A stretch of 36,419 bases of DNA, taken from contig NZ_CAMJUE010000014.1 in assembly GCF_946408925.1 (NCBI RefSeq), positions 1-36,419 of the forward strand, read 5' to 3'. Positions 9,787 to 36,419 of the stretch are shown here, piece after piece. Under the pieces are notes generated by a model that worked only from the letters and a program-made list of their open reading frames with translations, was not told where the DNA came from and did not search any database. Position 1 is the stretch's first letter. Each line of letters begins with the position of its first letter. This DNA comes from an uncultured Methanobrevibacter sp. Lineage in GTDB: Archaea > Methanobacteriota > Methanobacteria > Methanobacteriales > Methanobacteriaceae. The position numbers and the translations under genes are program-made.

Positions 9787-9793
9787 TTTATCA

Positions 9794-13493: not shown

Positions 13494-13500
13494 TGATATT

Positions 13501-14175: not shown

Positions 14176-14177
14176 TT

Positions 14178-14912: not shown

Positions 14913-14956
14913 TGTTTCTAATTTTTTCAAAAAATAGGTTTAGGAGAGAAAATAAT

Positions 14957-15709: not shown

Positions 15710-15717
15710 TTTAACAC

Positions 15718-16467: not shown

Positions 16468-16534
16468 TAAATCACTTAACTTAAAATTTTTTTATACATT
16501 ATTAATTATAGATGTAATTATATAAAAACTTTAA

Positions 16535-16557
16535 AAAAATTCGGAAAAAAGAAAAAA
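16535..16557 (-). terminator. Poly-U terminator after the P-type ATPase
   Basis: On the minus strand the stop of the ATPase gene is followed by a T-rich run interrupted by CCG (plus strand A-rich at 16535-16557), matching a hairpin-less archaeal U-tract terminator. It separates the ATPase gene from the ABC importer genes downstream on the same strand. Confidence 0.5.
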
Positions 16558-18705: not shown

Positions 18706-18730
18706 TTAAATCACTTAAAATAAAACGAGT

Positions 18731-18997: not shown

Positions 18998-19021
18998 TTA
19001 AATACCATCCTTTTAATTATT

Positions 19022-19641: not shown

Positions 19642-19659
19642 ACACATCCCCCACTATTT

Positions 19660-19673
19660 TTAGGTATACCTAA
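19660..19673. promoter_or_regulatory. DtxR-like operator in front of the ferredoxin gene
   Basis: TTAGGTATACCTAA is a perfect 14-bp palindrome located 13-26 bases upstream of the ferredoxin ATG at 19647. A TATA-like TTTATATA lies about 20 bases further upstream (19688-19698, read on the minus strand), so the box should overlap the transcription start. Confidence 0.6.
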
Positions 19674-19698
19674 CTTTATTTGAGACAATATATAAATA

Positions 19699-19714
19699 TT
19701 TTGGCATGCCTAAA
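19699..19714. promoter_or_regulatory. DtxR-like operator in front of the CPBP protease gene
   Basis: TTTTGGCATGCCTAAA matches the other two boxes with one mismatch in an arm; its core GGCATGCC is a perfect palindrome. It lies directly downstream of the TATA-like stretch at 19687-19699, between it and the expected start of the rightward transcript. Confidence 0.55.
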
Positions 19715-19753
19715 TTTTTTATAGATATTGTTAAATAACATTAATTAAAAATT

Positions 19754-20665: not shown

Positions 20666-20876
20666 CCCCATTATATTAAAATTAGAATGAATTAAAATGA
20701 TAGTTAAAAATATATATTTAATATAATTGAAGGGATTTTTAAAATTTAAATAATGAACTTAAAATTTTGATTATCTCAACAAGTACAGACATATGAAATC
20801 CAAAATTTATGGAATATGAAATCAAAAAAGAGTTATCCCATTACAGCAAGAATAATTAAAAAAAAGTGATGGATGA

Positions 20877-21212
20877 TTATTCCTCATCCATTGTTGATAT
20901 GACACTGTTTAAAATTTGCAGGGATTTTGAAAATGCAGGCATACCGGAAGTTAATAAGACAACTCTTAAAACGTCCACGATTTCTTCTTTGGTAATGTCC
21001 AATTCATTAATTGCACTCTGGATTTGTTTTTTGGTTGCCCTTGGATCTGCACGTGATGCGGTAATGCCTATTGCTATTAATTTTTGAGTCTTGTAATCCA
21101 GAACATTTCCGCTCCAGACAGTTTCATTAATATTTTTTACAAGATCGTATAAGTCAGGATGTTCATCTTCCAATTCCCTTATTCCTTTTCCGTAAAATAT
21201 TTCACCTTTCAT
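20877..21212 (-). CDS. Carboxymuconolactone decarboxylase-like protein without cysteines
   Basis: 111 residues of the CMD/AhpD-like alpha-helical family (hexameric bundles). The central stretch LDYKTQKLIAIGITASRADP plus the helix VDVLRVVLLTSGMPAF matches the family core. AhpD-type members use a CxxC pair for peroxidase chemistry; this protein has no cysteine at all, so it cannot act that way, and its reaction is unknown. Start: a TTG at 21227 is in frame, but the ATG at 21212 has a GGAGAGG ribosome binding site at the right distance. The region upstream is partly duplicated at 25383-25436. Confidence 0.85.
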   Translation of the reverse strand: MKGEIFYGKGIRELEDEHPDLYDLVKNINETVWSGNVLDYKTQKLIAIGITASRADPRATKKQIQSAINELDITKEEIVDVLRVVLLTSGMPAFSKSLQILNSVISTMDEE

Positions 21213-21227
21213 ACTCTTCCTCTCCAA

Positions 21228-21530
21228 ATAATTTTATTAGTTAATTAATATTTTAAATTTCAAGATATATATTAATAGCTATTTTCTTTTCATTTAACAG
21301 TTGGTTTTATATTAACATCACCCATTTGAGATTCGAAGATTAGTTTGAAAAGGCTCATGATATAGCAAAGTTGAATAAAATTTGATTTCTATATCATTGG
21401 TGTTAATGTCAAAAACACATCAGCAAATCAAAGTTTTGAGAATAAGTTTCGTTTTATATGAATTGTTCGTATTAGAAGTTTAATTTATATGAAAACAATT
21501 TTAGAAGTAAGTTTTCAGTAATTAATGTGG
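21228..21530. repeat. Gene-free spacer with an inverted repeat and a diverged direct repeat
   Basis: Perfect 9-bp inverted repeat ATGATATAG (21357-21365) / CTATATCAT (21389-21397) with a 23-base loop. A diverged direct repeat with 31-bp period starts TTTATATGAA and ends TTAGAAGT (about 21453-21480 and 21484-21510). I see no gene. The left end is the promoter of the CMD-like gene; the right end lies downstream of the MarR gene. Confidence 0.4.
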
Positions 21531-21983
21531 TTATTTTTTATTTTTATTTAATTCGACGGATTTAAATGTTATTCTAGTAAAGGTTTTATTAAATCCCTCA
21601 GATACTTCATTTAGGCCTATTTCATTTTCCCATTGAGCATTTATTTCCTCTATAATTGGAATCATGTTTTTTCCTTTAGAAGTTAAAGTTAAAGTATACT
21701 GTCTTTTATCGGAAGTTGATTTCTCACGTATAATAAAATTATTCTTTTCCAATTTTTTGACCGCTTTAGTTATAGCACCTTTAGTTAAGTAAAACCCATC
21801 TGATAAATCCTTTTGATTTAAGTTGTTCTCCTCATTTAATCTTAATAAACATAAAACTTGAACCAGATTCAAATCATATTGGGAAAATAAGTCATTTAAA
21901 TATTTTTTATGATTTGTATGAAAAATAAATAATAAATCACCAAAACGATTAGGATTATATAAATCAATATTATCAGAACTCAT
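21531..21983 (-). CDS. MarR family transcriptional regulator
   Basis: 150 residues from the ATG at 21983. A longer frame to 22064 adds a hydrophobic stretch that is probably just the leader; a GGTG ribosome binding site supports the later ATG. The winged-helix core is typical: LNLVQVLCLLRLNE, the recognition helix region LTKGAITKAVKKLEKNNFI, and the wing with STSDKRQYTLTLTSKGK containing the MarR DxR signature (SDKR). It is 144 bases downstream of npdG on the same strand, with its own spacer. It is a reasonable candidate to bind the tandem operator in front of the dehydrogenase-npdG pair, which is inference. Confidence 0.9.
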   Translation of the reverse strand: MSSDNIDLYNPNRFGDLLFIFHTNHKKYLNDLFSQYDLNLVQVLCLLRLNEENNLNQKDLSDGFYLTKGAITKAVKKLEKNNFIIREKSTSDKRQYTLTLTSKGKNMIPIIEEINAQWENEIGLNEVSEGFNKTFTRITFKSVELNKNKK

Positions 21984-22127
21984 TGAAACACCAAAATATA
22001 ATTTATTAAAACTATTATAAAAAATTAGATGGAAAAAAGATGAAAAAATGGTTGATAAAATCATCTATTGATCAAATTTATTTTTTCCATCTAAAAAAGG
22101 TATGATTTTGATTAAAAAGACTTTTTT

Positions 22128-22808
22128 TTATCTGATTTTTGGAATTCCTGTAATTCTTAAACCACCGTAATGGGATTTGTATTTAATGTTTAATCCAATT
22201 AATAATGGGGTGATTTTTTCGATGATTCTTGCTTTTTCCAAGATACCTGTGTCGATTGTTTTGATTCCAGGTATTTTGTCGATGATTTCTGCTGCAATTT
22301 CTTTTGCTTCCTTGTCGTCACCTGCTATCAAACAGTCACAGTCGATTTCTTCTGGGATGTTTGCGAGGTGTGAGTTTGAAATGTTACAGAATGCGCAGAT
22401 TACTTTTGCACCTGTTCCCTCAAGGATTTTTGCAGTTCTTTCTGCAGCGGATCCTTCCATTAAATCAACAAATCTGAATGGTTTTCCACCGATTGCTGTT
22501 TCTAATGGTACGGTTGCATCCATGACTATTTTATCAGTACAGAATTCCTTGATTCCTTCAACTGTTGGCTTTTGAGCAGCTAAAGGCACTGTAAGAATCA
22601 ATACATCTCCTACTTTTGCGGCGTCTTCGTTTGCCATACCGGTCATGTTTAGGTTATAGCCTGCTAAGTCCTCTTTAGCTTTTGCAACTACGTCCAATGC
22701 TTTTTCTTCTTTTCTTGAACCTACAATCACTTCTACACCAGCAATAGATAATCTTTCAGCGATTCCAAGTCCTTGTGGACCTGTTCCTCCAATAACACTT
22801 ACAATCAT
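22128..22808 (-). CDS. npdG: F420H2:NADP+ oxidoreductase (NADPH-dependent F420 reductase)
   Basis: Moves hydride between reduced F420 and NADP+, supplying NADPH for biosynthesis in methanogens. 226 residues. The N-terminal Rossmann loop GGTGPQGLG (7-15) is followed by IVGSRKEEKA, whose Ser-Arg pair binds the 2'-phosphate of NADP. The F420-binding parts (MDATVPLE, and the C-terminal helices LLIGLNIKYKSHYGGLRITG) match the family. It starts 29 bases after the 3-hydroxyacyl-CoA dehydrogenase gene and is probably expressed from the same promoter. Confidence 0.94.
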   Translation of the reverse strand: MIVSVIGGTGPQGLGIAERLSIAGVEVIVGSRKEEKALDVVAKAKEDLAGYNLNMTGMANEDAAKVGDVLILTVPLAAQKPTVEGIKEFCTDKIVMDATVPLETAIGGKPFRFVDLMEGSAAERTAKILEGTGAKVICAFCNISNSHLANIPEEIDCDCLIAGDDKEAKEIAAEIIDKIPGIKTIDTGILEKARIIEKITPLLIGLNIKYKSHYGGLRITGIPKIR

Positions 22809-22837
22809 ATTATCACCTAAAAAATTAAAAAAAGGAT

Positions 22838-23773
22838 TTAATATTCATAAAATCCTTTTCCAGCATTTATTCCCAGTTCTCCTTTGTCTATTTTTTCTTT
22901 AAGTTTTTCAATCATTTTTGATTGAAGTGAATCAGGGTCTTGAGCTTCAGGATTCATTAAAGCAATATTGTATAATGTTGTTAAACCAACAATATCAATA
23001 ATGTGGAATGGTCCTTTTGGAGCACCAGTTGCCAACATCCAAGTTTTATCGATTGTTTCAGGTTCTGCCACATCATTGGCCCATAATTTAGTTGCGGCAT
23101 TTAAAAATGGTACTAATAAAGAGTTTAATATATAACCTGGTTGCTCTTTTTTAACTTCTAATGGAATCATGTTAATGTCTTCAGCAAATTTAACGACTTC
23201 ATCAAAGTATTTTTGTTCAGTTCCAGCATGACCCATAACTTCTGCTGTGTTGTTTTTCCAAATTGAGTTTGCAAAATGTAAACAAAGATATTTTTCAGGC
23301 CTTCCAGTATATTCGGCAAACATTGATGGAAGTAAAGTTGATGAATTTGTCACGAGAATAGTTTTTTCAGGCATATATTTAGCCAATTCTTGATAAAATG
23401 CAATTTTTTCATCTGGAATTTCTGCAATTGCTTCAATGATTAAATCTGCATCTTTTGCTGCTTCTTCATAACTTGTTGTTAAAATTAAGCTATCATGTGC
23501 TTTTTGAACTTGTTCTTTTAATTCATCAATTTTTTCATCAGAAATTTCATCTTTTTTGATTAAACCTCTGCAGTATGCCATTTCATCGGTTTTCATTGCT
23601 TCAAGGTCTTCAATGTAGACATTTTTGAATCTTTCAAGTTTTGGTTTTGCTCTTTCAATTGATCCTTCACTTCTAAGCCAAATAGTAACATCAAATCCAC
23701 AGTATGCAGATTGTAATGCAATTTGACTTCCAAGGACTCCTCCTCCTGCTACAACAACTTTCTTTATACTCAT
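22838..23773 (-). CDS. 3-hydroxyacyl-CoA dehydrogenase family protein
   Basis: 311 residues with an N-terminal Rossmann domain (GGGVLGSQIA at 10-19) and the C-terminal helical 3HCDH domain (about 208-311), the layout of 3-hydroxybutyryl-CoA dehydrogenases. The catalytic region is unusual. The family normally has a His-Phe-Phe-Asn-Pro sequence; here it reads LHFANSIW (H166, N169), with E178 following. His is retained but the FNP part is changed, so the substrate may not be a typical acyl-CoA. Partner npdG suggests a supply or use of NADPH/F420, though this enzyme family commonly uses NAD. An AGGTGA ribosome binding site precedes the ATG. Tandem operators sit in its promoter. Confidence 0.85.
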   Translation of the reverse strand: MSIKKVVVAGGGVLGSQIALQSAYCGFDVTIWLRSEGSIERAKPKLERFKNVYIEDLEAMKTDEMAYCRGLIKKDEISDEKIDELKEQVQKAHDSLILTTSYEEAAKDADLIIEAIAEIPDEKIAFYQELAKYMPEKTILVTNSSTLLPSMFAEYTGRPEKYLCLHFANSIWKNNTAEVMGHAGTEQKYFDEVVKFAEDINMIPLEVKKEQPGYILNSLLVPFLNAATKLWANDVAEPETIDKTWMLATGAPKGPFHIIDIVGLTTLYNIALMNPEAQDPDSLQSKMIEKLKEKIDKGELGINAGKGFYEY

Positions 23774-23794
23774 TTTTATTCACCTTCTAAAAAG

Positions 23795-23833
23795 TAGTAT
23801 ACCTGTAAACTAAATTAGTATACTTGTAAACTA
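23795..23833. promoter_or_regulatory. Tandem 18-bp operator in the dehydrogenase-npdG promoter
   Basis: TAGTATACCTGTAAACTA (23795-23812) and TAGTATACTTGTAAACTA (23816-23833) differ at one base. Each is a near-palindrome (TAGTwTAC-N2-GTAwACTA). They are 21 bp apart centre to centre, two helical turns. A TATA-like TTTATATACT (minus strand, about 23845-23856) lies just upstream, so bound protein would cover the transcription start. Confidence 0.65.
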
Positions 23834-24120
23834 ATATCTATTGTATAGTATATAAATCTTTTCTAAATCCGTTTCCCCTAAGCTGGTTTTTTAGGTTTTA
23901 ATTTTTAACCAATTTCGATTATCTGTTGATTCATTTTTGTTAAATATGAATCATTTTCAATTCAAAAAAAATCAAAAACAAACTAAAAGTGGATTTACAT
24001 AGTTGAACATCTCCTTTGGAGAGGATGGAGATTTTCAAATTTCTCATTTTAAAGTAACATTTAAATAGAAGTTATGAATATATATTCATAATACCTGAAG
24101 ATACATTTGGGGAGAAAATT
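23834..24120. promoter_or_regulatory. Spacer between two divergent operons with a perfect 20-bp palindrome
   Basis: No gene seen. TTATGAATATATATTCATAA at 24072-24091 is a perfect palindrome, 30-49 bases upstream of the DUF134 gene, and contains its likely TATA element. Further left, 24009-24032 carries a CTCC/GGAG hairpin-like element (ATCTCC-TTT-GGAGA and a second GGAGAT). Confidence 0.5.
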
Positions 24121-24645
24121 ATGGTAAGACCTAAAAGAATGAGGAGAGTAGTCACATGCCACAGGCATGAGTTGAACAGGAACCTGAAACCGATAGAGCT
24201 GTCTGTAGATGAGTTTGAAGCAATCAGATTCAAAGACTATCATAATATCAAACAAACGGAGGCTGCGGAATTTATGGGAATCTCACAGTCAACATTCCAC
24301 AGAATTCTAAACTCTGCAAGGCATAAACTAGCTGTTTCTCTAATTGAAGGCCGACCAATAGTTGTTGTAAAAGGTGATACAATGATTGATCCAAATAAAT
24401 ACTTATGCGAAGATTGTGGTTTTCAATGGTCAAATCCAGAAAAAGAATATGAGGAATGCCCGGACTGCAAATCAACAAACATTCGCAAATTGAATGCAAA
24501 TAATAGAAACAGAATGTCAAATGACACATGCAGTTGCCCTAATTGCGGATACACAGAACCAAAAATTAGAGGCATTCCATGCAGAACCAAAACATGCCCA
24601 GAATGTGGTTCACCACTACAGGGAAGAGGATTATGCAACATTTAA
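24121..24645 (+). CDS. DUF134 (UPF0251) helix-turn-helix protein with C-terminal zinc ribbons
   Basis: 174 residues. The N-terminal DUF134 domain has the usual RPKR opening, the LSVDEFEAIRFKDY segment and a sigma70-region-4-like helix-turn-helix (TEAAEFMGISQSTFHRILNSARHKLA, about 46-71). Two cysteine clusters follow: C96/C99 with C113/C116, and C137/C139/C142 with C154/C159/C162. The first is clearly a zinc ribbon and the second a ribbon or related knot. It is probably a DNA-binding regulator. DUF134 genes often sit near iron-sulfur or nitrogenase-cofactor-like genes; here the partners are a zinc ribbon protein and a ferredoxin. GGGGAG precedes the ATG. The palindrome at 24072-24091 could be its own operator. 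Confidence 0.85.
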   Translation: MVRPKRMRRVVTCHRHELNRNLKPIELSVDEFEAIRFKDYHNIKQTEAAEFMGISQSTFHRILNSARHKLAVSLIEGRPIVVVKGDTMIDPNKYLCEDCGFQWSNPEKEYEECPDCKSTNIRKLNANNRNRMSNDTCSCPNCGYTEPKIRGIPCRTKTCPECGSPLQGRGLCNI

Positions 24646-24663
24646 AGAGGGAGATGATTTAAG

Positions 24664-24951
24664 ATGGCTGATAATCTAGAATATGTCTGTAAAGAATGTG
24701 GCTTCAATTGGATAACATTGAACGGCGAACACCATATATGTCCAAGATGCCACAGCGAAACAATAGAATATGTCGGTGAAGTGAAAGGCTTAGACATCGA
24801 TTCAATATTAAACCACAACAAAAGGATGGGAGGATGCTGCGGTTCTGCCCGTGGAAGAGGACCATTGACCTGTGGAAAACCATATCCGGACCACCACGAC
24901 CCAAACATTCCACATGATCCGGAAAAATGCTGCGGACATAGAGCATGCTAA
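24664..24951 (+). CDS. Small zinc ribbon protein with a cysteine-rich tail
   Basis: 95 residues. The N-terminal half is a rubredoxin/zinc-ribbon-like knuckle pair (C9-x2-C12 and C26-x2-C29). The C-terminal half has a GGCCGSARGRGPLTC stretch and ends HDPEKCCGHRAC, so C58, C59, C70, C89, C90 and C95 could hold a second metal site. I do not recognise a named family. It begins 18 bases after the DUF134 gene and is followed 16 bases later by the ferredoxin gene, so the three form an operon devoted to metal-cysteine proteins. Role unknown. Confidence 0.75.
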   Translation: MADNLEYVCKECGFNWITLNGEHHICPRCHSETIEYVGEVKGLDIDSILNHNKRMGGCCGSARGRGPLTCGKPYPDHHDPNIPHDPEKCCGHRAC

Positions 24952-24967
24952 ACTGGAGGTTAAAAGA

Positions 24968-25147
24968 ATGGCTGAAATTACAATAGATACTGATAAATGC
25001 GACAATTGCGGAGACTGCACCGACGTTTGTCCTATGGAAGTTTTAATTCTTGAAGATGGCAAATTAACCATCAATGACCCTGATGAATGTAGTTACTGCG
25101 AAACCTGTGTGGATATTTGCCCAAACGAATGCATCACAATAGAATAA
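24968..25147 (+). CDS. 2[4Fe-4S] ferredoxin
   Basis: 59-residue soluble electron carrier, the size of clostridial-type ferredoxins. Cluster ligands: C11, C14, C17 with C21, and C41, C44, C47 with C51, giving two complete CxxCxxCxxxCP motifs; an additional C55 follows. A longer frame begins at 24872 but overlaps the preceding gene; the ATG at 24968 has a GGAGG ribosome binding site. Last gene of the DUF134 operon, followed by a T-rich stretch at about 25160-25190. Confidence 0.92.
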   Translation: MAEITIDTDKCDNCGDCTDVCPMEVLILEDGKLTINDPDECSYCETCVDICPNECITIE

Positions 25148-25604
25148 AACTTCTAATCATTTTCTTTTTTAAATATTTTTTATCAAAATAATACATCATT
25201 AAATTAAAGTTAAAAAATTTTATAATCATCAAAAAATTAATTTTCTATCAGAGTTTCAGTACAGATTTTGATAAGCATCGGAACTTTTTTTATAAGTTTT
25301 ATACGAATGAAAATTTTTAATTAGTATAAGTTCAAAAAAAAACTAGTGTAGAGAGAACATAAGTATGACAACTATCACATGTCCTTTCATATATTCCTCT
25401 CCAAATAATTACATGATTAATATTTTAAACTTCAAGTCATACATAATTAGGCCAAAACAAGACTTTAAAAAAATTACATTTAATTCAAACATAAACACTG
25501 ACCCCACATATCAAAGTGGAATTAATCTCATCACCATTAGCATATTGCATTAGCTAATAAGATGATGGATTAATGACTTCATTATACGATATATAATGAA
25601 GTTG
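25148..25604. other. Gene-poor spacer with a relic of the CMD-gene leader
   Basis: 457 bases. A T-rich terminator region lies at about 25160-25190. Bases 25383-25436 match the leader and start of the CMD-like gene (21205-21264), including TTCCTCTCCAAATAATT and ATTAATATTTTAAA; the frame after its ATGAAAGG stops after 15 codons, so it looks like a relic. A short frame at 25365-25553 crosses this relic and has no other support. An 11-bp hairpin at 25576-25602 ends the spacer. Confidence 0.45.
25576..25602. terminator. Hairpin directly after the NRPS-exporter operon
   Basis: ACTTCATTATA / TATAATGAAGT, 11 perfect base pairs with a 5-base loop, ending two bases before the stop codon of the MATE gene (TAA at 25605-25607 on the plus strand). 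It may terminate or protect the long transcript, or be an operator-like palindrome. There is no long T tract after it. Confidence 0.45.
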
Positions 25605-27335
25605 TTAATTTTTAATAGTTATTACAGTACTATTTAACCCTAATACTCTTGAATAGTCAACATTGTCTGCAATTTTATTTAAAACACTGATATTATCAAA
25701 TTCAAGATTATCTTTTTCCACTACTGGATTGAAATCGACACCAGTATCCTTAATTGATATTAAAATATTGTCAGCATTATTTCTAACAATTACGTCAATT
25801 GTATTAACTGTTTCATTGTTGTTGATGATGTTTACAAGCATCTCTTCAATAGCTAAACTGACTATTGCTGCAGATTTATTGTCTGATAAATAATTCTGAA
25901 CATTTTGTGCCAATTCCACAGCATCTTTTACATTACCATTAATTGTATGTTCAAATACTTTTTCATCATCATTGTGCTTGTTGATAAAGAATCCTGAATA
26001 TTCACCCTCTGTTTTTTTATGGATATATTTTGAATAAGCAAAGATGAACAGTATTGTTAATGCTTCAGCGATTGCAAATGAAATCCAAATACCGTTTCCT
26101 GCAAATGGAATGGACAATATGAATGCAAGCCCAATAGGCAAGACCAAACCTTCAAGCAGGGAAATAATAGTGGATAATTTATTTTTCTGAATTGCCTGAG
26201 CATAAAAAGTATATAAAAATGTAATGGCTGTTCCCACATAACTTATTGCAAATATTCGCAGAGCATTCAATACAACAGGAACATCTGCAGGATTTTTAAC
26301 ACTGTACAGGAACAATAACGCCCGAGGATACACAATAAATAACAAAGATAAAGCCAAACTTGCAATTACAACGATTTTTAAAGACCTGTGAATAATGTAA
26401 TTAACTCCAGAATAGTCTTCTTCTTTAAAGTAAACAGACACTATTGGAGACATTGTCTGAGCAGTTCCTATTAAAAATATATATAATATGAACAGGCTAT
26501 TATAGCAGATACCGAATGCCACAATACCTGATTTTCCAACATATATTCCAACTAAAAAGTTTATTACAAGCAATTTTAAAGTTAAGTATAACTGTGTTGA
26601 AGAAGATGAAAATCCGGAAGTTGCAATTTTTTTAAGGAAAGCGAAGAATTTGCCTAATTTTAATTTAATAAATTCCAATGTACGGTCCTTTTTAAAAAAG
26701 TAATATGAAATTAAAACTGATCCAACAAGATAACCTGTTGAAGTAGCCAATGCTGCTCCTGAAAGTCCTAAATGGAAATATGAAATATAAATTACATCAA
26801 AACATATATTAACAATATTTGCAATCAATATTGCTCTGAACGGTAGTGACGGCATACCATCTGCCCTTATAAAGTATGATAAACTCATCATATAACATAA
26901 AAACGGCATACCAATAATTAATGAATTGAAATATGAAGTTACCTCAGGAATCAGTTCGGGCTGGGAGGAACATAAAAACTGTGTAATACTGCCTGAAAAT
27001 ATCAAACCGAATATCGAAATCAGTATTCCAATTACTAAAAGTGAAATAATAGATGTTGAAAAATATGAATTACTCTTTTCATCATCAAATTCTGCCTTTG
27101 CAACAGAACAAAGTACACTACCACCCAATCCAATCATCCAATAGATTAGATTGACAAAAGTAATCACAGGAGCTACAATCTGAATTGGTGCAAGATTAGA
27201 TGCACCAATTAAAAAGCTCACTATCAAACCATCCACAAATAAACAGATATTTCCTGCCATTGAAGTAAATAATGTCGGGAGGAAAAATTCACTGAATTTA
27301 CTCCTCAATAATTCATAATTTCTTTCATACATCAT
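25605..27335 (-). CDS. MATE-type exporter fused to an RsbW/SpoIIAB-like ATPase domain
   Basis: 576 residues, longer than the usual 440-460 of MATE transporters. Residues about 1-450 are the MATE part: twelve hydrophobic segments in two similar halves. After a polar linker, about 460-576 is an HATPase_c_2-type domain. It shows an N box, IEEMLVNIINN at 496-506, with the E-x3-N pattern, and a G1 box, DTGVDFNP at 530-537, like the D-x-G-x-x-F-x-P of anti-sigma kinases. The glycine-rich G2 lid that normally follows is replaced by FDNISVLNKI, so ATP binding or kinase activity may be weakened. The end (NVDYSRVLGLNSTVITIKN) matches the last beta hairpin of RsbW. It follows the NRPS by 8 bases with a GGGG ribosome binding site, so it likely exports the peptide product under control of a STAS partner. 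Confidence 0.88.
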   Translation of the reverse strand: MMYERNYELLRSKFSEFFLPTLFTSMAGNICLFVDGLIVSFLIGASNLAPIQIVAPVITFVNLIYWMIGLGGSVLCSVAKAEFDDEKSNSYFSTSIISLLVIGILISIFGLIFSGSITQFLCSSQPELIPEVTSYFNSLIIGMPFLCYMMSLSYFIRADGMPSLPFRAILIANIVNICFDVIYISYFHLGLSGAALATSTGYLVGSVLISYYFFKKDRTLEFIKLKLGKFFAFLKKIATSGFSSSSTQLYLTLKLLVINFLVGIYVGKSGIVAFGICYNSLFILYIFLIGTAQTMSPIVSVYFKEEDYSGVNYIIHRSLKIVVIASLALSLLFIVYPRALLFLYSVKNPADVPVVLNALRIFAISYVGTAITFLYTFYAQAIQKNKLSTIISLLEGLVLPIGLAFILSIPFAGNGIWISFAIAEALTILFIFAYSKYIHKKTEGEYSGFFINKHNDDEKVFEHTINGNVKDAVELAQNVQNYLSDNKSAAIVSLAIEEMLVNIINNNETVNTIDVIVRNNADNILISIKDTGVDFNPVVEKDNLEFDNISVLNKIADNVDYSRVLGLNSTVITIKN

Positions 27336-27343
27336 TAATCCCC

Positions 27344-30300
27344 TTAAATACTAAAGAAGTCCAGATCATCCAAATATTTCACAAAGTTATAGACATACTC
27401 TTCAGACACATACGGCCATTTAATTCCCAAACGATACAATGCCTGTACGGTATAATCATTTGATACAGGAAGCCAGATTTTTTTAACTTTACCAGAACCG
27501 ATTGAAGTAATTAAACCTGAAACTCCTTCTTGTTTTGATTTATCGGCCAATGCATCATCCAATGCTTTTTGATATTCATCTTCCTCCACATATTCAATAT
27601 TCAATCCCAGAGGTTTGATGATTTCAATTATATCTCCAAAACTGATACTGTGATAATCATATGGATGGAATACAGTACAATCCTTTGGAGTTTTTGACAG
27701 ACTAATAATTGCTTTTGCAGTCATATCAATTGGTGAAAATTCAACATTGCCCATAATCATTGAGTAAGACATTTTTCCAATTGTAACAAATGCTTTTAAA
27801 CGGTTAATGAATCCGTTTGATTCAAAGTTAATTTGGAATTCACTGTCAGAGCTTCTTGCCATCAGGTTTCCAACCCTCATGATTTTAACATCCAAATCAT
27901 TCTCTACCGCAGCTTCAAGAACTGCCCTTTCTGCGAGGAATTTGGAGTTAAGATACTGATTGTCCACAGCCTGACCAATGAATAAGTCCTGCTCTGTGAA
28001 CGGAACATCGACAGGAGGATAATTGTTAATACTTTCACCTGCAATACTGTAGGTTGAAACCTGAACATATTTTGCATTTTTCATTTTAGCAAACTTAAGC
28101 CCGTTTACAACACCACCAAGGTTAATGTCCTCAATGTCCGTTCCAGATGAAAAGTGTTTCACATTAGCTGCACAATTGACAATGGTATCAATGTTTACAT
28201 TAATAAGTTTTTCAAAGTCTTCAAAGTTTGTAATATCCCCTTCAATAATGTGCAATCTCTCATTGAAAAGCTCTTCGTATTCATTGGAGAAATAATAGAA
28301 GAGAAGTGATTTTAATCTTTCCTCTCCGCTTAATACTTTGTTTGATCTTATGAAACAGTATACATCACCAGTTTCATTTTCCAATATTTCACGAAGAACA
28401 TGAATTCCTAAAAATCCTGTAGCTCCGGTGAGTAAAATATTTCCCAAACTATCCTGAATTTCGCCATCAAGTAAGTTTTCAAGAGTGTTTTTCTTAAGTA
28501 ATGAATCAATATCGGAATAATCATATGACAGTTCAGCTTTTTTCTCTTCAGACTGGTCGGATAATACCAATTCGGCCAATGCTCTTGGAGTTGGATTTGA
28601 AAATACATCCCCATAGTTCAGATTATAGTTTCTGTTTAGTGCCTCCATTGTAATTTTGGTCACTAAAAGTGAGGTTCCACCAATTTCAAAGAAATTATCT
28701 GTAGCACTTACTTCATCAAGTCCTAAGATTTCACCAAACAGGTTTGTAAAGAATGCTTCAATGTCATTTTCAGGAGCCACATATTCTGTTATTAAAACAG
28801 GTTCAGGTAAGTTTCTGAGGTCTGTTTTACCATTTGCTGTTTGAGGCATTTCATCAAGTTCCATATAAACTGTTGGAACCATATAATATACCAATTTTTC
28901 CGCAAGGGAAGCTTTTAAATCATCAATATTAATTGAGTATTCGTTTTCTCCACGGTTTTCCTCCCTGTATTCATCATGAACTGTGAAGTAGGCGCATAAA
29001 TGGTCATTGCCTTTGATTTTTCTAACAACAACTGCAACGGATTTGATTCCTGGGAATTTTGAAAGTCCAACTTCAATTTCCCCAATTTCTATTCTTAAAC
29101 CTCTGAGTTTGATTTGATTATCCATTCTTCCGAATACATAATAATCTCCTTCTTCAGTGACCTTAACAAAATCTCCTGAACGGTAAAATCTTATTCCGTT
29201 AATAACTTCATATGCCTCAGCATTTTTCTCAGGACGATTCAAGTATTCTCTTGAAACCCCTTTTCCTGCAATATATAACTCCCCTATTACATTTGGAGGC
29301 AATGGATTGGAGTCAAAGTCCATGACCATTTCATGAACGTTGAATAATTCTTTTCCAATGTGAATATCTGAGCTTTCAAGCTGAACACCGTTACAGTAGA
29401 CAGTTGTTTCTGTTGGCCCGTACATATTAAAGAATTTTCCATTGGAATTTTGTGAGAGAAGCTCATATAATCTTTTAGAGAAAGGTTCTCCAGCATGAAT
29501 ATATACCTTAAATCCATACATAGTCTCCTGCATCGCTTCAATTTCAAGATACTGAAGCAGTCTTGATGGGGTTGCAATGTAAACATTTGCACCGGTTCTG
29601 TGGATTAAATCCATCATTTCAATTGGATCTTTATATTCAGTATCATTAGCAAATACCATTGGAACACCATTCAAAAGTGATCCCATAATTTCCTGCTGGA
29701 ATACATCAAATGCAACTGTTGTTGTGGACAATACTTTATAATCTTCTTTTTCAAGATTATGAACCAGTTCATAAGTACAAACATTCCTTGGGTCAGGATA
29801 CACAAAGTTTGCAATGTTTCCATGTTCAAGGATTACTCCTTTAGGAAGTCCTGTTGAACCTGAAGTGTAAATTAGATATGCCATATTGTTTGCATGCACA
29901 TCCGGATCAGGGTTAGCAGTGTCTTTTTCTTTGAGCAGTTCATTAACATCAAGCAAATTATCTTCATATCCACTTAAATCTATACCTTTCTTCTCAATCA
30001 CATCATCCACAATGATAAATTTGGATTCGCTGTCTGTTAAAACATGCTCAATTCTCTCAGATGGATATTCTGAATCCACCGGAATGAATGCTGCACCGGA
30101 TTTTAGAATACCAAATATTGATGCAACCACATTACTGTCCCTATTTAATATAAACATTATTCTGTCTTCAGGACCGACACCCCTTTTAATGAGGCTGTGA
30201 GCAATTCTGTTAGCTTTTTTATTTAGTTCATCATATGTAAATTCCCCGTCAGTGGCATATAATATTACTCTGTCAGGATGCATTTCAACCTGATTTTCAA

Positions 30301-33300
30301 ATATTTTATTTAATCTGTCTTCAGGAACATCATCATATGCCAAATCATCGACACCCCAGTCATCGTTTTCAATGATTGAAATATCTTTCATCAATGTGCT
30401 TTCATCAAATGTCTGGAATTTGTTTAAAACTATTCTAATTGATTCAAGGAAAGTGCTGATTAAAGTTTCAGAGTATAACTGATCATTATATTCGCAGAAA
30501 ATTCTGTATTGACCATCAACTTCCACAACATTAATGTTGACTTTGAATTTCAGTCCTTCATAATCAATAGACTGTCTTTCAACTTTCATTCCACCGATTT
30601 CAATGTCTTCAATGATTTTTCCATGATAAGCATATAATATTTCAGGAGCAATATCGAATTCATTTGAAATTTCAGTTAAAGGATATGCGGAATATGTCAA
30701 TACATTCAGCCATTCCCCATTTATATATTCAAAGTATTCCTTAAGAGTTGAATCAGAATTTAATTTCAATGCTAATGGTAATGTTTTAACCATCATGGCC
30801 AATGTTTTCTGTTGATTTGGATTGAATCTACCATTAGTGATAGTTGCGATTAATGTATCACGATTATATGCGAATTTATTTATAACAAATGATGTTGCTG
30901 CCAGGAACAAATTGTTCTGAGAGATATTTGCTTTTGAACAGAACTCATCAATACTGGTTTTTTCAAGGAAAATATCATTCATTGCGACTTTACCTTGTGA
31001 TTCATCGCCGTTAATGTCCTGTGGAATTAATGTTACATCATCAAACTCTTTGACTCTGTTATTGAAGAATAATTTTGCCTCCTCATATAAACCGGATTGG
31101 CGTGTTTTAATCTCATTTAAGCAATATTCAAATCCGTCAAGCTCTTCAATCTCATAATCTTTTCCATCATAGATTTTTGAGATTTCATCAAATAAAATGT
31201 TTAAAGAGGTTCCATCAACAATAATGTGGTGGAAATCAGCTAAAAGCATTGAGTTTCCAACTATCTTAAATCTGAATAATGGACCCTCATCCAGTTTGAA
31301 TGGTTTTACAAACTCATCAACATCAGCTTCATCAACAACTTCAATCATATCATCAATTTTTAAATCATCCCTTCTTTGCTGATATACTTCACCGTTATCC
31401 ATTATTATTCTTGTTTTGAGATACGGATGATTTTCAATAGCTTTAATGATTGATGATTTAAGTTTGCCAACATCAATTCCTTCACTAAATTCCATTTTCT
31501 TCGGAAGGTTATATGCAGTGTTATCCAGATTTTTAATGCAGTCAAAGTAAACTCCAAGTTGATTTGGAGTTAAAGGATAAAGTTCTTTAATATCCTGCGA
31601 TTCATCATCTTCAATTTTAATTTCAGAAGCTATTTTTTCAATAGTTTTGTATTTAAGAATTTCAGTAACATTCAATTGGGCATTTAATTTGGAATATATT
31701 GCAGAGGTCAGCTGGATAACTGTCAAAGAAGTTAAACCAATGCTGAATAAATCAGTATTAACACCAAATTCATCCATTCCCAAAATATCTGAGACAATGT
31801 CAAACAGTTCTTTTTCAATATCATTTCTCGGTTTAATAAAATCATCTAGATTTATTTCAGGATCCGGCAAGTTTTTGAAGTCAGTTTTTCCATTTGGAGT
31901 TTTTGGAAAAGCGTCCAATTGTATTAAATAAGACGGCACCATATACTTCGGAAGTGAATCGATTAAATGCTGTTTTAAATCATCCAAATTAATTTGTGAA
32001 GTTGCAGTAAAGTATGCGCAAAGGTGTTCAATACTGTTAAGTTTTTTAACAACAACCTTTGACAATGCAATGCCTTCATAGTTTGCTATTACACTTTCGA
32101 TTTCAGATAACTCAATTCTCAATCCTCTGAGTTTAATCTGAGTATCGTTACGTCCTGCAACATACAGTTCGCCTTTTGAATCCTTTTTACCCAAATCACC
32201 AGTGTTATAATATGGAATGTTGTTTAACTCCATGAACACCTTTTCAGTCTGTTCAGGATTATTCAGATATCCTCTTGCAATTCCGGCACCACCAACATAT
32301 ATTTCACCGGAAACATAAGCAGGCAGCTGATTTCCATCAATATCCATAATTTTATCAACTACATTAAGCATTTTCCAACCAGCAGTTACTTCAGAAGAGT
32401 CAATTAATTTGTAATGTGATGCTATTGTAACTTCTGTCGGACCATATGAATTGTAGATATCTGCTTTAGTGTATTTTGACAATCTATCATAGAGAACTGG
32501 AGGGAATCCTTCACCACCTACAATAATTACTTTACATCCGCCAACAACATTCTGAATTTCTTCAAGCTGCAAGTATTCAAGCAGTCTTGTCGGTGTTGAG
32601 CCAAAACCATCCGCATCAGTCTTTTTAAACAGTTCCACTAATTGTAATGGGTCAATAGCCTCCTCATCATTTGCAAATACCACCGGCAAACCGTTTAAAA
32701 TTGTACCGAATATCTCCCTTAAAAATACAATGAATGACACTGTTGAAATTGATATGAACTTATCACATTTACGGTTGAGCTCATAAATCGGAACATTTTC
32801 ATCCACATTGGCAATATAGTTTGATATTCCCCTATGAGTAATCATTACCCCCTTAGGTTTTCCGGTTGACCCTGAAGTATAAATTAAGAAACATAAATTG
32901 TCAGGAGTTAATTCTACATTCGGATTTGAATCATCGCTTTCTTCAAGTAATTTTCCAACATCAAATCTGTTTTCACCATCGTATTCGATATCCTCAGAAG
33001 TAATGACAAATTTTGAATCGCTGTCTTCCAATATCTGGTCAATCCTGTTTTTCGGATAGTTCGGATCAATCGGAATAAATGCGGCGCCCGCTTTGACAAT
33101 ACCTAAAACAGCCGCTATCAAATCACTGTTTCTCCTCATCATAAACATTACTTTATCTTCAACTTCAACCCCATTTTTAATTAAACTGTTGGCTATTTTA
33201 TTTGCTTTTCTGTTTAATTCATCATATGTTAACTCGCCATCCTCTGTATAAAGTATTGTTTTATCCGGATTTTCCAAAGATATCTTTTCAAATATATTAT

Positions 33301-35161
33301 TTATTACGCCTTCATTAGCCAGATCAATTTCAAAGTCCTCATCAAGTTCAATTTCATGTCTTATTGAAATAGAATTAAGTAATGTCTCATTTATGGTAAA
33401 TTTATCCAATAATACATCAATGGACTCCAAAAATACGTCCATTAATTCTTTTGAATAGAATGATTCATCATAACTGATATTGATTTTTCCACTTTCATAA
33501 TTAAAGACAAGTTTGTAGTCTTTAGTGTCAAATTCATCAATGAAAAATAATATTTCACTTTCAAAGTTTAATTTCTGATTGTTTAAAAGGGGATATTTAT
33601 TGAATTCTTTAAATGAATTTTTAAAATCATTTAAGTATTCTTCAACGCTTAAATCAGTGTCAAAATGATATCCTGCAGCAACACGATTATAAGCAATTAA
33701 AATATCTTTTGAAAATGAAAATTTGGTTAAATCATATAGGAAAACTGCGAGCAATAGCTTTTCCTTAGGCAGTTTATACTGGTTAGACAAATTTTGTAAC
33801 TTATCCTCATCAATTGCTTTAGAAATCTGTGTAAAATTAACCTTATCACCACTAACATCCGGTGAAATTGATGTTGGATTATCAAATGAATTTATCAGAT
33901 TATTATAATAATTTTCTGCCCTGAAAAATTCCACTTCATCCACATTGTAATCCCGACATTTTTTTGATGAATCTATGCTAACCTCTTTTAATAGATCTTT
34001 TAAACCTTGACCGATTGATTCGATTTCACTTTTATTGAAACATGCTTTATCATATTCAATGAAAATAGAATGCAAACCATTTTTATCGGAGAAATTTTTA
34101 TTTATTCTGAAGTGAAGCGGGAATTTAATGTCCTTTTGATATGTCAGGAATTTAGAATCATGATTTGTAGAATTTGACACGATGGAAATAGTAGAAATAC
34201 AATCAGGATCAATTCCCGCATTTCTCAAATCAGTTGTGTACTCGCTGAACTGCAGTTTCGCATGAGCCAAACCCTCTTTTAAAACGCTTTTAGAGTATGC
34301 AAGCAAATCATCAAATGTTAAATATTCATCATAGGTTAATCTTAATGGAATAGTGTTTACAAACATTCCCAGTGCATCATCTTGTCCAAAGTATCTGCCA
34401 TGGACTGAAGTGTTTAAAACCAGATCTTTGAATAAGTTATTGCCACGTTTTAATTTTGCCAAATACAAGAAGGTTAATGCAAGAGATGTTACAAATGGCG
34501 AATAATTAAAATCTGAAGTCTGATCTAAAAGAACTTCAAAATACCCAAGTTCCGAATTATCAAATGAATACCAGTCTCCGGAATAATCCTTTAAAGTATT
34601 TAACCAGTATTTTTTATCACTTTTTGCTTCATCAGATTTTAAATATTTTAATTCTTCATCAACATAAGTTTCATAGGAATAATCAATTGGGACATATTCA
34701 CTATTGTTTTTAATAGATTCGATGCACTTATCCATTTCATGAGGAATAATTGAAAATAAAGAAGTCCCATCAAGCAAAATATGCTGGACAACACCTATCA
34801 AAACAGCGGAAGATTCTGTTTTTAAAACTGCCCATTTATATAACGGAGAGTCAAATACATCATCAAAAGGTTTATCAAGATAATCTTTTATAAAATCATT
34901 TAGATTTTCATTTGAAACATCAAATGAATCAATATTTACATCAATATCTATATAATACTGCTTGAAATTACCGGTATCATCATTTTTAATTTGTAAATTC
35001 AAATATTGGGCAGATATTATTTTAATTGCTTTTTTAACATACACCAAATCCTCCAAATCATAATCTTTTCTAAATTTAAGATAAAATGAATCATTATGAG
35101 GATTATTTATCTCTGAAAATAAAAGCATTTTCTGAGCGGAGGATAATTTAAAGAAATTCAT
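27344..35161 (-). CDS. Two-module non-ribosomal peptide synthetase with terminal reductase
   Basis: 2605 residues. Domains: C1 (about 1-400; active-site motif QHILLDG at 126-132, first His replaced by Gln); a partial second C domain (about 415-610, C-lobe only); A1 (about 630-1110; YTSGSTGKPKG at 761-771, NGKTD near 1090); T1 (S1145 in GLTSL); C2 (about 1195-1640; HHIIVDG at 1311-1317); A2 (about 1650-2090; YTSGSTGLPKG at 1765-1775); T2 (S2164 in GGTSL); NAD(P)-dependent reductase (about 2240-2605; GATGFLG at 2246-2252, Y2403 and K2407). It should join two units, with acylation by C1 possible, and release the product reductively as an aldehyde or alcohol. A1 has Ile811 where amino-acid-activating domains have Asp; A2 keeps it (D1819). 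An AGGTGA ribosome binding site precedes the ATG. NRPSs are rare in archaea but known in rumen Methanobrevibacter (from memory). No phosphopantetheinyl transferase is in the window. Confidence 0.95.
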   Translation of the reverse strand: MNFFKLSSAQKMLLFSEINNPHNDSFYLKFRKDYDLEDLVYVKKAIKIISAQYLNLQIKNDDTGNFKQYYIDIDVNIDSFDVSNENLNDFIKDYLDKPFDDVFDSPLYKWAVLKTESSAVLIGVVQHILLDGTSLFSIIPHEMDKCIESIKNNSEYVPIDYSYETYVDEELKYLKSDEAKSDKKYWLNTLKDYSGDWYSFDNSELGYFEVLLDQTSDFNYSPFVTSLALTFLYLAKLKRGNNLFKDLVLNTSVHGRYFGQDDALGMFVNTIPLRLTYDEYLTFDDLLAYSKSVLKEGLAHAKLQFSEYTTDLRNAGIDPDCISTISIVSNSTNHDSKFLTYQKDIKFPLHFRINKNFSDKNGLHSIFIEYDKACFNKSEIESIGQGLKDLLKEVSIDSSKKCRDYNVDEVEFFRAENYYNNLINSFDNPTSISPDVSGDKVNFTQISKAIDEDKLQNLSNQYKLPKEKLLLAVFLYDLTKFSFSKDILIAYNRVAAGYHFDTDLSVEEYLNDFKNSFKEFNKYPLLNNQKLNFESEILFFIDEFDTKDYKLVFNYESGKINISYDESFYSKELMDVFLESIDVLLDKFTINETLLNSISIRHEIELDEDFEIDLANEGVINNIFEKISLENPDKTILYTEDGELTYDELNRKANKIANSLIKNGVEVEDKVMFMMRRNSDLIAAVLGIVKAGAAFIPIDPNYPKNRIDQILEDSDSKFVITSEDIEYDGENRFDVGKLLEESDDSNPNVELTPDNLCFLIYTSGSTGKPKGVMITHRGISNYIANVDENVPIYELNRKCDKFISISTVSFIVFLREIFGTILNGLPVVFANDEEAIDPLQLVELFKKTDADGFGSTPTRLLEYLQLEEIQNVVGGCKVIIVGGEGFPPVLYDRLSKYTKADIYNSYGPTEVTIASHYKLIDSSEVTAGWKMLNVVDKIMDIDGNQLPAYVSGEIYVGGAGIARGYLNNPEQTEKVFMELNNIPYYNTGDLGKKDSKGELYVAGRNDTQIKLRGLRIELSEIESVIANYEGIALSKVVVKKLNSIEHLCAYFTATSQINLDDLKQHLIDSLPKYMVPSYLIQLDAFPKTPNGKTDFKNLPDPEINLDDFIKPRNDIEKELFDIVSDILGMDEFGVNTDLFSIGLTSLTVIQLTSAIYSKLNAQLNVTEILKYKTIEKIASEIKIEDDESQDIKELYPLTPNQLGVYFDCIKNLDNTAYNLPKKMEFSEGIDVGKLKSSIIKAIENHPYLKTRIIMDNGEVYQQRRDDLKIDDMIEVVDEADVDEFVKPFKLDEGPLFRFKIVGNSMLLADFHHIIVDGTSLNILFDEISKIYDGKDYEIEELDGFEYCLNEIKTRQSGLYEEAKLFFNNRVKEFDDVTLIPQDINGDESQGKVAMNDIFLEKTSIDEFCSKANISQNNLFLAATSFVINKFAYNRDTLIATITNGRFNPNQQKTLAMMVKTLPLALKLNSDSTLKEYFEYINGEWLNVLTYSAYPLTEISNEFDIAPEILYAYHGKIIEDIEIGGMKVERQSIDYEGLKFKVNINVVEVDGQYRIFCEYNDQLYSETLISTFLESIRIVLNKFQTFDESTLMKDISIIENDDWGVDDLAYDDVPEDRLNKIFENQVEMHPDRVILYATDGEFTYDELNKKANRIAHSLIKRGVGPEDRIMFILNRDSNVVASIFGILKSGAAFIPVDSEYPSERIEHVLTDSESKFIIVDDVIEKKGIDLSGYEDNLLDVNELLKEKDTANPDPDVHANNMAYLIYTSGSTGLPKGVILEHGNIANFVYPDPRNVCTYELVHNLEKEDYKVLSTTTVAFDVFQQEIMGSLLNGVPMVFANDTEYKDPIEMMDLIHRTGANVYIATPSRLLQYLEIEAMQETMYGFKVYIHAGEPFSKRLYELLSQNSNGKFFNMYGPTETTVYCNGVQLESSDIHIGKELFNVHEMVMDFDSNPLPPNVIGELYIAGKGVSREYLNRPEKNAEAYEVINGIRFYRSGDFVKVTEEGDYYVFGRMDNQIKLRGLRIEIGEIEVGLSKFPGIKSVAVVVRKIKGNDHLCAYFTVHDEYREENRGENEYSINIDDLKASLAEKLVYYMVPTVYMELDEMPQTANGKTDLRNLPEPVLITEYVAPENDIEAFFTNLFGEILGLDEVSATDNFFEIGGTSLLVTKITMEALNRNYNLNYGDVFSNPTPRALAELVLSDQSEEKKAELSYDYSDIDSLLKKNTLENLLDGEIQDSLGNILLTGATGFLGIHVLREILENETGDVYCFIRSNKVLSGEERLKSLLFYYFSNEYEELFNERLHIIEGDITNFEDFEKLINVNIDTIVNCAANVKHFSSGTDIEDINLGGVVNGLKFAKMKNAKYVQVSTYSIAGESINNYPPVDVPFTEQDLFIGQAVDNQYLNSKFLAERAVLEAAVENDLDVKIMRVGNLMARSSDSEFQINFESNGFINRLKAFVTIGKMSYSMIMGNVEFSPIDMTAKAIISLSKTPKDCTVFHPYDYHSISFGDIIEIIKPLGLNIEYVEEDEYQKALDDALADKSKQEGVSGLITSIGSGKVKKIWLPVSNDYTVQALYRLGIKWPYVSEEYVYNFVKYLDDLDFFSI

Positions 35162-35244
35162 ATTTATTCACCTAAAAAAATTTAACTATACTAAAATTAT
35201 GTAAAACAAAATATTTAAAATTATATATGAACAAATAAATTACT
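35162..35244. promoter_or_regulatory. Shared divergent promoter of the NRPS operon and the STAS gene
   Basis: 83 AT-rich bases. A TTATATAT element at 35221-35228 is 17-24 bases before the STAS ATG, so that message may be leaderless; no ribosome binding site is seen there. For the NRPS direction, a TTTAAATATTTT element lies at about 35206-35217. Confidence 0.5.
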
Positions 35245-35544
35245 ATGAATATTAATAAAGATTACAATGGACAAGAATTAACAATTTCTGTTGAAGGGCG
35301 TATAGATACAATTACTTCACAAGACCTTGACAATGAAATTAAAAATGAAATGGGAAAATTTGATTCATTAATTATGGATTTTACCAATATGGAATACATT
35401 TCAAGTGCAGGTCTCAGAGTTCTGATTGCAACTCAAAAGAAATTAAAACCAGACAATATTCCGTTCATCATTAAAAATGTTAATGAATCTGTGGGAGAAA
35501 TATTCAGAATGTCTGGGTTTGATAAAATTTTGAATATAGAGTGA
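35245..35544 (+). CDS. Single-domain STAS protein (anti-sigma factor antagonist type)
   Basis: 99 residues, just one STAS domain of the SpoIIAA/RsbV kind. It has EGRIDT after the first strands, MDFTNMEYISSAGLRVL (about 44-60) with S54 aligned to the serine phosphorylated by SpoIIAB/RsbW kinases, and a C-terminal helix SVGEIFRMSGFDKI. In bacteria such proteins bind an HATPase anti-sigma kinase and release a sigma factor. Archaea have none, so its natural partner here is probably the RsbW-like domain fused to the MATE exporter in the divergent operon. No PP2C phosphatase gene is visible in the window to reset phosphorylation. Confidence 0.92.
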   Translation: MNINKDYNGQELTISVEGRIDTITSQDLDNEIKNEMGKFDSLIMDFTNMEYISSAGLRVLIATQKKLKPDNIPFIIKNVNESVGEIFRMSGFDKILNIE

Positions 35545-35578
35545 ATTCAGCCAATTAGATAGAAATGATATGCATCAT

Positions 35579-35872
35579 TTAACTATTTGAATTCAAATAA
35601 TTATCAAATTTCAAGTACACATTCTCTTCAAATTTTCCAAATCTCTCTTTAACTTTTAATTTTCTGAATAATAATTCTCTTATCCAATCGATTAAAGCAC
35701 AAACAACAAATATTCCTATTCCAAGAACAATTACACTTATAAACAATGAAATTGGATCAAATTGAGCTATAAATTCAAATTTGCCATCAAAGAAGAAATA
35801 TGCAAGAGCCATGTTATCGTGAATAAGATAAACTCCAAAAAAACTAGAAAAAAGTAAATAGATTATTACAAA
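35579..35872 (-). pseudogene. C-terminal remnant of an acyltransferase-3 family membrane protein
   Basis: An open frame of 98 codons including the stop, of which 77 residues follow the first ATG (35812). The frame continues upstream of that ATG without interruption to 35872, reading FFGVYLIHDNMALAYFFF. This is the signature of the last helices of acyltransferase-3 (OafA/NolX-like) O-acetyltransferases, including the IHDN element. Beyond 35872 a stop blocks the frame, so about three quarters of the protein is missing. Two or three transmembrane segments remain. Not likely to be functional. The family modifies surface sugars. Confidence 0.75.
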
Positions 35873-36027
35873 TTAATATTTTTCAACTTAACTAAATCTT
35901 CTTTTAATTCAGGAACTTCAACTGTTAATGCATACTCCATTACATCAAATTCTGCAGATTCATATTTATGAATCATGATATTGCGCATATCCTTAATACT
36001 GCACCAAGGAATTACTTCCACAAAAGA
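35866..36027 (-). pseudogene. Truncated HepT-like (DUF86/HEPN) toxin remnant
   Basis: 53-codon open frame matching the C-terminal half of HepT proteins: IPWCSIKDMRNIMIHKY, with the RX4HXY ribonuclease motif (R, then H-K-Y), followed by VPELKEDLVKLKN in the place of the usual DLPxLK ending. In-frame GTG at 36021, but a stop codon just upstream (36028-36030) cuts off the first half, and no MNT nucleotidyltransferase antitoxin gene is visible. It overlaps the acyltransferase remnant by a few bases. Likely a decayed toxin-antitoxin locus. Confidence 0.65.
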
Positions 36028-36253
36028 TTAATGTGAAAAAAATAGAAATTCAAATATTATACTATAAACATAATACTCTTTTTAATCCCAACCCACAGTA
36101 AACAAGTGAATGAAATATTAAATTATTTTAAATTTCAAAGTAGTGTAAAGAGGAAAGTAGCACCAACTTCACATGAGTTTTCATAATTCTCCCCATTAAA
36201 TTTAAAGAATAAGTTTCCTTCTGATTTAATTAAACGTGAAATAGAAAAAATTT
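36028..36253. other. Gene-free AT-rich spacer
   Basis: I see no supported gene. A short plus-strand frame ending at about 36261 (reading FPSDLIKREIEKILK then stop) may be a relic of another protein's C-terminus. A minus-strand ATG with GGAG in front near 36175 opens only 18 codons. Confidence 0.3.
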
Positions 36254-36280
36254 TAAAATAGTGCATTGAGCACTATTTTA
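36254..36280. terminator. Hairpin terminator after the right-edge adhesin-like gene
   Basis: TAAAATAGTGC / GCACTATTTTA, 11 perfect base pairs with a 5-base loop. It overlaps the stop codon of the leftward gene and is followed on the minus strand by a T-rich stretch (plus strand 36243-36252). Confidence 0.65.
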
Positions 36281-36419
36281 CTTTAACTGTTGTTTTTATT
36301 GTGTTTTTAAGGTAGGTCACTTTGACAGTATAGGTTTTGCCTTTCTTAAGCTTTTTTATGACACTCTTTTTCAAGGTCTTCTGGGCGATTCCATTCTTGT
36401 TGGTTTTGACCTTGTAGGT
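36273..36419 (-). CDS. C-terminus of an adhesin-like protein (runs off the right edge)
   Basis: 48 residues to the stop TAG at 36273-36275. The sequence (TYKVKTNKNGIAQKTLKK, then KKLKKGKTYTVKVTYLKNT) is the lysine-rich Ig-like end module also found at the C-terminus of the 1001-residue protein (YTAKTNTKGKATFNLKK...). It is therefore part of a large surface protein whose body lies outside the window. Followed by a hairpin terminator. Confidence 0.85.
   Translation of the reverse strand, partial: TYKVKTNKNGIAQKTLKKSVIKKLKKGKTYTVKVTYLKNTIKTTVKVK

Follow-up and report, generated by a model that had tools for sequence, protein, structure and literature searches.

A nonribosomal peptide synthetase-exporter locus of a gut methanogen and a possible partner switch with the exporter, not a sigma factor, as its output

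The window analyzed here is a 36,419-nucleotide stretch of DNA (NZ_CAMJUE010000014.1, positions 1..36,419, forward strand; assembly GCF_946408925.1) from an uncultured Methanobrevibacter sp., a gut methanogen. It encodes a nonribosomal peptide synthetase (NRPS), a MATE-family exporter with an RsbW-like C-terminal domain (the tail), and a stand-alone STAS protein whose gene is divergent from the NRPS gene across 83 bp. This arrangement, noticed earlier in a reading made from the sequence alone (the sequence-only reading), was confirmed. The principal features are as follows, with E values and sources of evidence in brackets.

25605..27335, minus strand: 576-aa exporter of the MATE family, its C-terminal domain RsbW-like (MatE, 9.4e-25)
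25608..25973, minus strand: RsbW-like tail, exporter residues 455-576 (AlphaFold2 [AF2] tail model; Foldseek and VIA-align matches)
25674..25697, minus strand: G2 box position, DNISVLNK, without glycines (alignment)
25725..25748, minus strand: G1 box, D530-T-G...N-P537 (alignment of 102 MATE open reading frames [ORFs])
25830..25844, minus strand: N-box, E498-MLV-N502 (alignment of 102 MATE ORFs)
27344..35161, minus strand: NRPS, C-A-T-C-A-T-R, where C is condensation, A adenylation, T thiolation and R reductase, 2605 aa (Pfam/NCBIfam and motifs)
35245..35544, plus strand: STAS-only protein, RsbV/SpoIIAA-like, 99 aa (Pfam STAS, 1.7e-14; NCBIfam ant_ant_sig above cut-off)
35404..35406, plus strand: Ser54 codon, counterpart of the SpoIIAA phosphoserine, in the motif SSAGL (alignment with SpoIIAA 1auz)

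The STAS protein is a single STAS domain by its Pfam, NCBIfam, and PDB matches, the last to TM1442, SpoIIAA, and RsbV. We take the serine that matches Ser54 to be the SpoIIAA phosphorylation site. In the window protein this residue stands ahead of the xGL, and all 36 aligned STAS rows read SSxGL, a number of them sharing one genome; the retained phosphoacceptor bears out the proposal that the protein is RsbV-like.

Two MatE stretches in the Pfam scan and a helical model (full-length AF2 model, pLDDT 86.5, pTM 0.80) place the exporter in the MATE family. Searching PDB sequences with a profile of the tail was uninformative (best E 0.18, sensor kinases only), and structure comparison was therefore needed. 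Foldseek and VIA-align matched the AF2 model of the tail to structures of UsfX, SpoIIAB, and RsbW (1th8, 6m37, and 8ih8), so that the tail has the RsbW-type GHKL fold that had been suggested for it; no match to it was found among plasmid and phage records. The tail keeps the N-box (E498/N502) and the G1 box (D530/G532). Its G2 position, however, reads DNISVLNK where free RsbW has GGLGI, and it scores 20.3 bits against a Pfam HATPase_c_2 cut-off of 27.4, which the bacterial homologues in regions L188, L191, and L192 reach and that of L172 does not. Because of its G2 sequence and its score below the cut-off, we do not assign the tail to the RsbW kinases. GxG was found at the G2 position in none of the 102 MATE ORFs; one G2 glycine (DGI) is retained in four tails of Selenomonad and Synergistales origin, and in two archaeal tails a glycine is shifted by one place (DNIG). 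In the alignment of 22 free RsbW proteins the motif is GGLG, with a single GGWG variant. An ATP-driven kinase at the exporter is doubtful given the missing glycines, a point on which the sequence-only reading needs correction, and the tail is probably a diverged docking domain, a pseudo-kinase.

The window holds an output arm of a switch, and the rest of that switch is encoded elsewhere in the same genome (G000; 2.30 Mb, 133 contigs, 88% complete). This genome has four STAS matches and three SpoIIE phosphatases. HATPase_c_2 matches five of its proteins at E 0.1, and the only one above the cut-off is a free RsbW on contig C1; the window MATE and three histidine-kinase-like proteins on C118 and C15 lie below it. 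The free RsbW gave no PDB match at E 0.01. On C1 it belongs to a single operon, STAS-RsbW-SpoIIE-phosphopantetheinyl transferase (PPTase), and its RsbW and SpoIIE may act on the window's STAS copy, a candidate pairing. The sequence-only reading had seen only some of the switch parts. A free RsbW and SpoIIE phosphatases are encoded in the window's own genome and, in many relatives, within the cluster, so that the kinase may be a protein other than the tail. The idea that it is the genome's only kinase is ruled out by the free RsbW; bacterial genomes with the fusion also hold RsbW elsewhere.

Two other loci of this genome carry related domains. A 423-aa protein on C1 (L024:1878-3149) has a C-terminal STAS domain; at E 0.01 Pfam shows no match to the N-terminal part, which is methyltransferase-like by eye. 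Contig C32 encodes two membrane SpoIIE phosphatases in tandem (L018:3408-7199), with no STAS or MATE gene in the 9 kb examined around them.

In bacteria, RsbW, RsbV, and their relatives control sigma factors, and in the classical switches unphosphorylated STAS is the form that binds RsbW-like surfaces. Archaeal transcription relies on TBP and TFB, and to our knowledge no sigma factor is to be expected there. The window's system resembles RsbV/RsbW/RsbU and SpoIIAA/SpoIIAB/SpoIIE in its STAS phosphoacceptor serine, RsbW kinase, and SpoIIE phosphatase, but here an RsbW-like domain without G2 glycines is fused to an exporter. We give about an even chance to a model in which the NRPS-exporter cassette is run by a partner switch with the exporter, not a sigma factor, as its output. 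A membrane SpoIIE-type phosphatase and a free RsbW kinase would set the phosphorylation state of Ser54, unphosphorylated STAS would also dock on the exporter's tail, and docked STAS would gate release of the predicted dipeptide and perhaps local synthesis too. Because the exporter carries a relative of a signalling domain, the switch probably acts on the pump and not on gene reading; the tail more likely serves for docking than for catalysis, given that it has no G2 glycines and that STAS genes also abut exporters without an N-box. If STAS does dock on the tail, a bacterial sigma-factor switch would have been rewired to a membrane pump in a presumably sigma-free host. A role would be found for the STAS, RsbW, and SpoIIE proteins of these archaea, a route to controlling or eliciting rumen methanogen peptides would come into view, and the two partners would make a simple small-protein pair for study.

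Conservation of the tail was assessed in the 102-ORF alignment (MATE ORFs above 540 aa, E <1e-40, one per distinct sequence; 7 bacterial). An intact N-box and G1 were found in 51 of 65 copies next to an NRPS gene versus 6 of 37 others (48/61 versus 6/34 in the archaeal subset, n=95). By a crude count, STAS is linked to 33 of 57 intact tails versus 1 of 44 degenerate ones. The split or cut MATEs of L102 and L105 fall outside the alignment and the tail-STAS tree test, which also leaves out L182, its tail being interrupted by a frame break; flank lengths vary among the stretches. Paralogous MATE-tail proteins away from NRPS loci (L089, L090, L106, L153, and kin) have Tyr or His in place of the G1 aspartate. 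In L105:11001-12736 (G019), the MATE (486 aa) and the RsbW-like tail (92 aa) occupy two overlapping frames, either by natural fission or by a frame break.

A second class of MATE genes, with degenerate tails, is also often adjoined by STAS. A convergent STAS gene ends 3-31 bp past the MATE stop in L200-L204, L206, and L208, and 166 and 20 bp past it in L205 and L213, respectively, where SpoIIE is also present; no STAS was found near the second-class MATEs of L207, L103, L104, and L113. NRPS genes lie beside the MATE in L200-L202 and L204-L206, with open frames of up to 8210 aa. L206 is the region of L189, already in the 102-ORF alignment, and the other eight regions are additional; most of the regions examined here were chosen for a STAS near a MATE or a SpoIIE gene and yield no rate. 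The eight additional regions soften the crude link between intact tails and STAS. As a general rule, that intact tails go with a linked STAS was set aside: the crude association is strong, the tree test is not significant, and the larger NRPS clusters weaken it.

Several observations count against the exporter as output. The tree offers 5 independent pairs (median p 0.25 for STAS, 1 for NRPS adjacency), too few for the test to show whether an intact tail is associated with STAS or NRPS. In the larger NRPS clusters, the abutting STAS is paired with tails lacking the N-box. Thirteen of 38 regions with a tailed MATE and an NRPS have no STAS on the stretch examined, 6 NRPS genomes lack SpoIIE, and 12 SpoIIE genomes lack an NRPS. 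The Clostridiales region L172 has an NRPS and a MATE-tail with neither STAS nor SpoIIE in 21.7 kb, and a further HATPase_c_2 protein (G138:C4:187034) lies about 10 kb off the L191 STAS gene. Binding of STAS to the tail and its effect on transport are themselves predictions. Cluster control is also partly transcriptional, in that lauric acid raises the M. ruminantium M1 mRNAs of mru_0069, mru_0351, mru_0352, and mru_0514 (log2 1.06-1.64; PMC5816558), which encode the MATE of the first cluster, the second NRPS with its MATE, and the PPTase; the passages of that paper on this induction do not name the first NRPS, mru_0068.

The lauric acid response would suit a somewhat unlikely alternative in which STAS, RsbW, and SpoIIE govern another target, such as cluster expression or some other effector, and the tail is vestigial or structural. 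Leahy et al. (2010; PMC2812497) proposed, in the part of the paper drawn on here, that NRPS expression is controlled, and the degenerate tails of several MATE subfamilies and the location of the triad away from the exporter, as in the window's own genome, point the same way. It accounts less well for an N-box and G1 kept in 51 of 65 NRPS-adjacent tails across wide divergence, for the STAS genes that abut the MATE gene in the larger NRPS clusters, and for bacterial clusters (L191 and L192) in which no RsbW stands beside STAS and SpoIIE.

The sequence-only reading had proposed looking for joint occurrence, and the parts do co-occur. Among 138 genomes, 72 have both NRPS and SpoIIE, 6 NRPS alone, 12 SpoIIE alone, and 48 neither (Fisher 4.9e-19, uncorrected for kinship); within the genus, SpoIIE is present in 47 of 47 NRPS genomes versus 5 of 20 without. 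STAS was found in 90 of the 138 at E 1e-8, and "MATE" in the co-occurrence survey means any match at E <=1e-20, tailed or not. In 60 Methanobacteriaceae regions, chosen among the matches listed and in places several per genome, a common layout is PPTase-SpoIIE-RsbW-STAS divergent from NRPS-MATE, and 12 hold all six genes. STAS is present in 25 of the 38 regions with a tailed MATE and an NRPS, divergent from the NRPS in 20 of these.

Bacteria carry the same parts. A species-genome scan found at least 79 loci, at least 9 of them bacterial, and since it retained 80 of 99 confirmed stretches, the bacterial counts are lower bounds. The gene order is STAS-SpoIIE-MATE/HATPase-NRPS in L191 (Synergistales) and MATE/HATPase-PPTase-NRPS-SpoIIE-STAS in L192 (Selenomonadaceae). 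No RsbW was found in either cluster by ORF lists, Pfam scans, and a genome-wide family search, a statement limited to the cluster itself for L191 because of the nearby HATPase_c_2 protein; both genomes have RsbW next to SpoIIE and a STAS protein at other loci (L197 and L198). With no RsbW found in these clusters, the exporter tail occupies its place in the canonical set. Downstream of the L191 NRPS cluster, a STAS domain is fused to an AMP-binding adenylation domain (L191:20296-21794).

That the block was simply transferred, with STAS and exporter functionally uncoupled, is very improbable. The MATE fusion and NRPS do occur in unrelated rumen taxa and linkage is not universal, but the partners stay constant despite differing gene orders (L056, L091, L191, and L192), NRPS and SpoIIE are associated genome-wide with dispersed genes included, and the scheme recurs with GH3 enzymes. 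A further alternative reverses the direction, with the exporter as sensor and its tail as an active kinase, so that transport or substrate state would set STAS phosphorylation and STAS would act on another partner. The retained N-box and G1 are compatible with this, and in L191 and L192 the tail is the sole HATPase found in the cluster, lies above the Pfam cut-off, and keeps one G2 glycine (DGIMLL); SypE-SypA is a precedent for STAS as the downstream part (PMC10120452, as far as consulted). We judge it improbable nonetheless, given a complete free RsbW in the window's genome and no GxG in the window tail or the other aligned archaeal tails.

The GH3 recurrence is exemplified by L215:4479-6614 (G048:C23), where one protein joins a GH3 acyl-amido synthetase to a canonical RsbW domain. 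Its neighbours are STAS, two SpoIIE genes, and another MATE-HATPase, unrelated to the window type, with one G2 glycine kept (YGIKIV). The GH3-RsbW query matched 21 of 138 genomes, in 3 by the HATPase part only and in 18 by the GH3 part; both parts share one open frame in 4 of the 18, and 13 of these 18 have STAS <=400 bp away from GH3 (match positions compared by eye). By the same comparison, STAS and GH3 form a fusion in G119 (C98), both matching in the same register within a 687-aa open frame. Direct attachment of STAS or RsbW-like domains would extend from exporters (MATE-HATPase) to enzymes that form amides (GH3-RsbW, STAS-GH3, and STAS-adenylation). We tentatively entertain, at a little under even chances, that gut methanogens and rumen bacteria generally use partner switching, without sigma factors, to control how small molecules are made and exported, gating chemistry and not transcription.

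Switches with other outputs are known. The output of SiaB/SiaC is a diguanylate cyclase. That Pseudomonas system (6kko) differs from the window's in this respect. SypA/SypE of Vibrio fischeri is alike in being a STAS switch with a non-sigma output below transcription, but, in the passages of PMC10120452 used here, that output is biofilm formation, and SypE, a kinase-receiver-phosphatase fusion, does not transport anything. The gene set itself was known from a rumen Methanobrevibacter; the sequence-only reading had mentioned NRPS clusters reported there. In the part of PMC2812497 drawn on here, M. ruminantium M1 mru0066-mru0071 comprises serine phosphatases, an anti-sigma factor antagonist, a two-module NRPS, and MatE, a set shared with the present system, and a third M1 cluster has STAS, PPTase, phosphatase, and RsbW. 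The earlier remark that the switch logic seemed undescribed therefore needs dividing, the layout and a general regulatory guess having been printed in 2010; a HATPase domain on MatE, a switch on the exporter, and bacterial counterparts are not mentioned in that part. In the literature searched, which leaves most subscription journals outside, no description was found of a MATE-HATPase fusion under partner switching, of the fused domain or its fold, of the bacterial versions, or of the reuse on other enzymes.

The remaining features concern the NRPS and the intergenic region.

27707..28432, minus strand: thioester-reductase domain ending the NRPS, residues 2244-2485 (NAD_binding_4, E 6.8e-35)
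35162..35244, no strand: divergent intergenic region, 83 bp, STAS / NRPS (sequence)
35207-35220: AT-rich palindrome CAAAATATTTAAAA (core AAATATTT) in the 83-bp intergenic region (sequence)

The palindrome recurs, with variants, in the divergent intergenic regions of relatives and could be an element serving both promoters. The shared promoter of the sequence-only reading gained this candidate and no further support.

The NRPS has an N-terminal C domain, two A-T modules, and a terminal reductase, with QHILLDG, HHIIVDG, two T-domain serines, and, in the reductase, GATGFLG and YLNSK. This is the architecture of an N-acyl dipeptide aldehyde NRPS, presumably also that of rup (C-A-T-C-A-T-R). By its position the first C domain would be an acylating starter, and the product is probably a reductively released, N-acylated dipeptide, with an aldehyde predicted from the reductase-ended architecture. 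Gut-microbe NRPS pathways of the ruminopeptin type give dipeptide aldehydes according to the part of PMC12327764 consulted. The first A domain shows SFIVFLREIFG where usual A domains show F-D, and the same replacement recurs in the equivalent domain of the majority of the NRPS ORFs listed. We assume the F-D position to be the amino-group-binding site (position 235 of GrsA), and the substrate of this domain may lack an alpha-amino group or be otherwise unusual.
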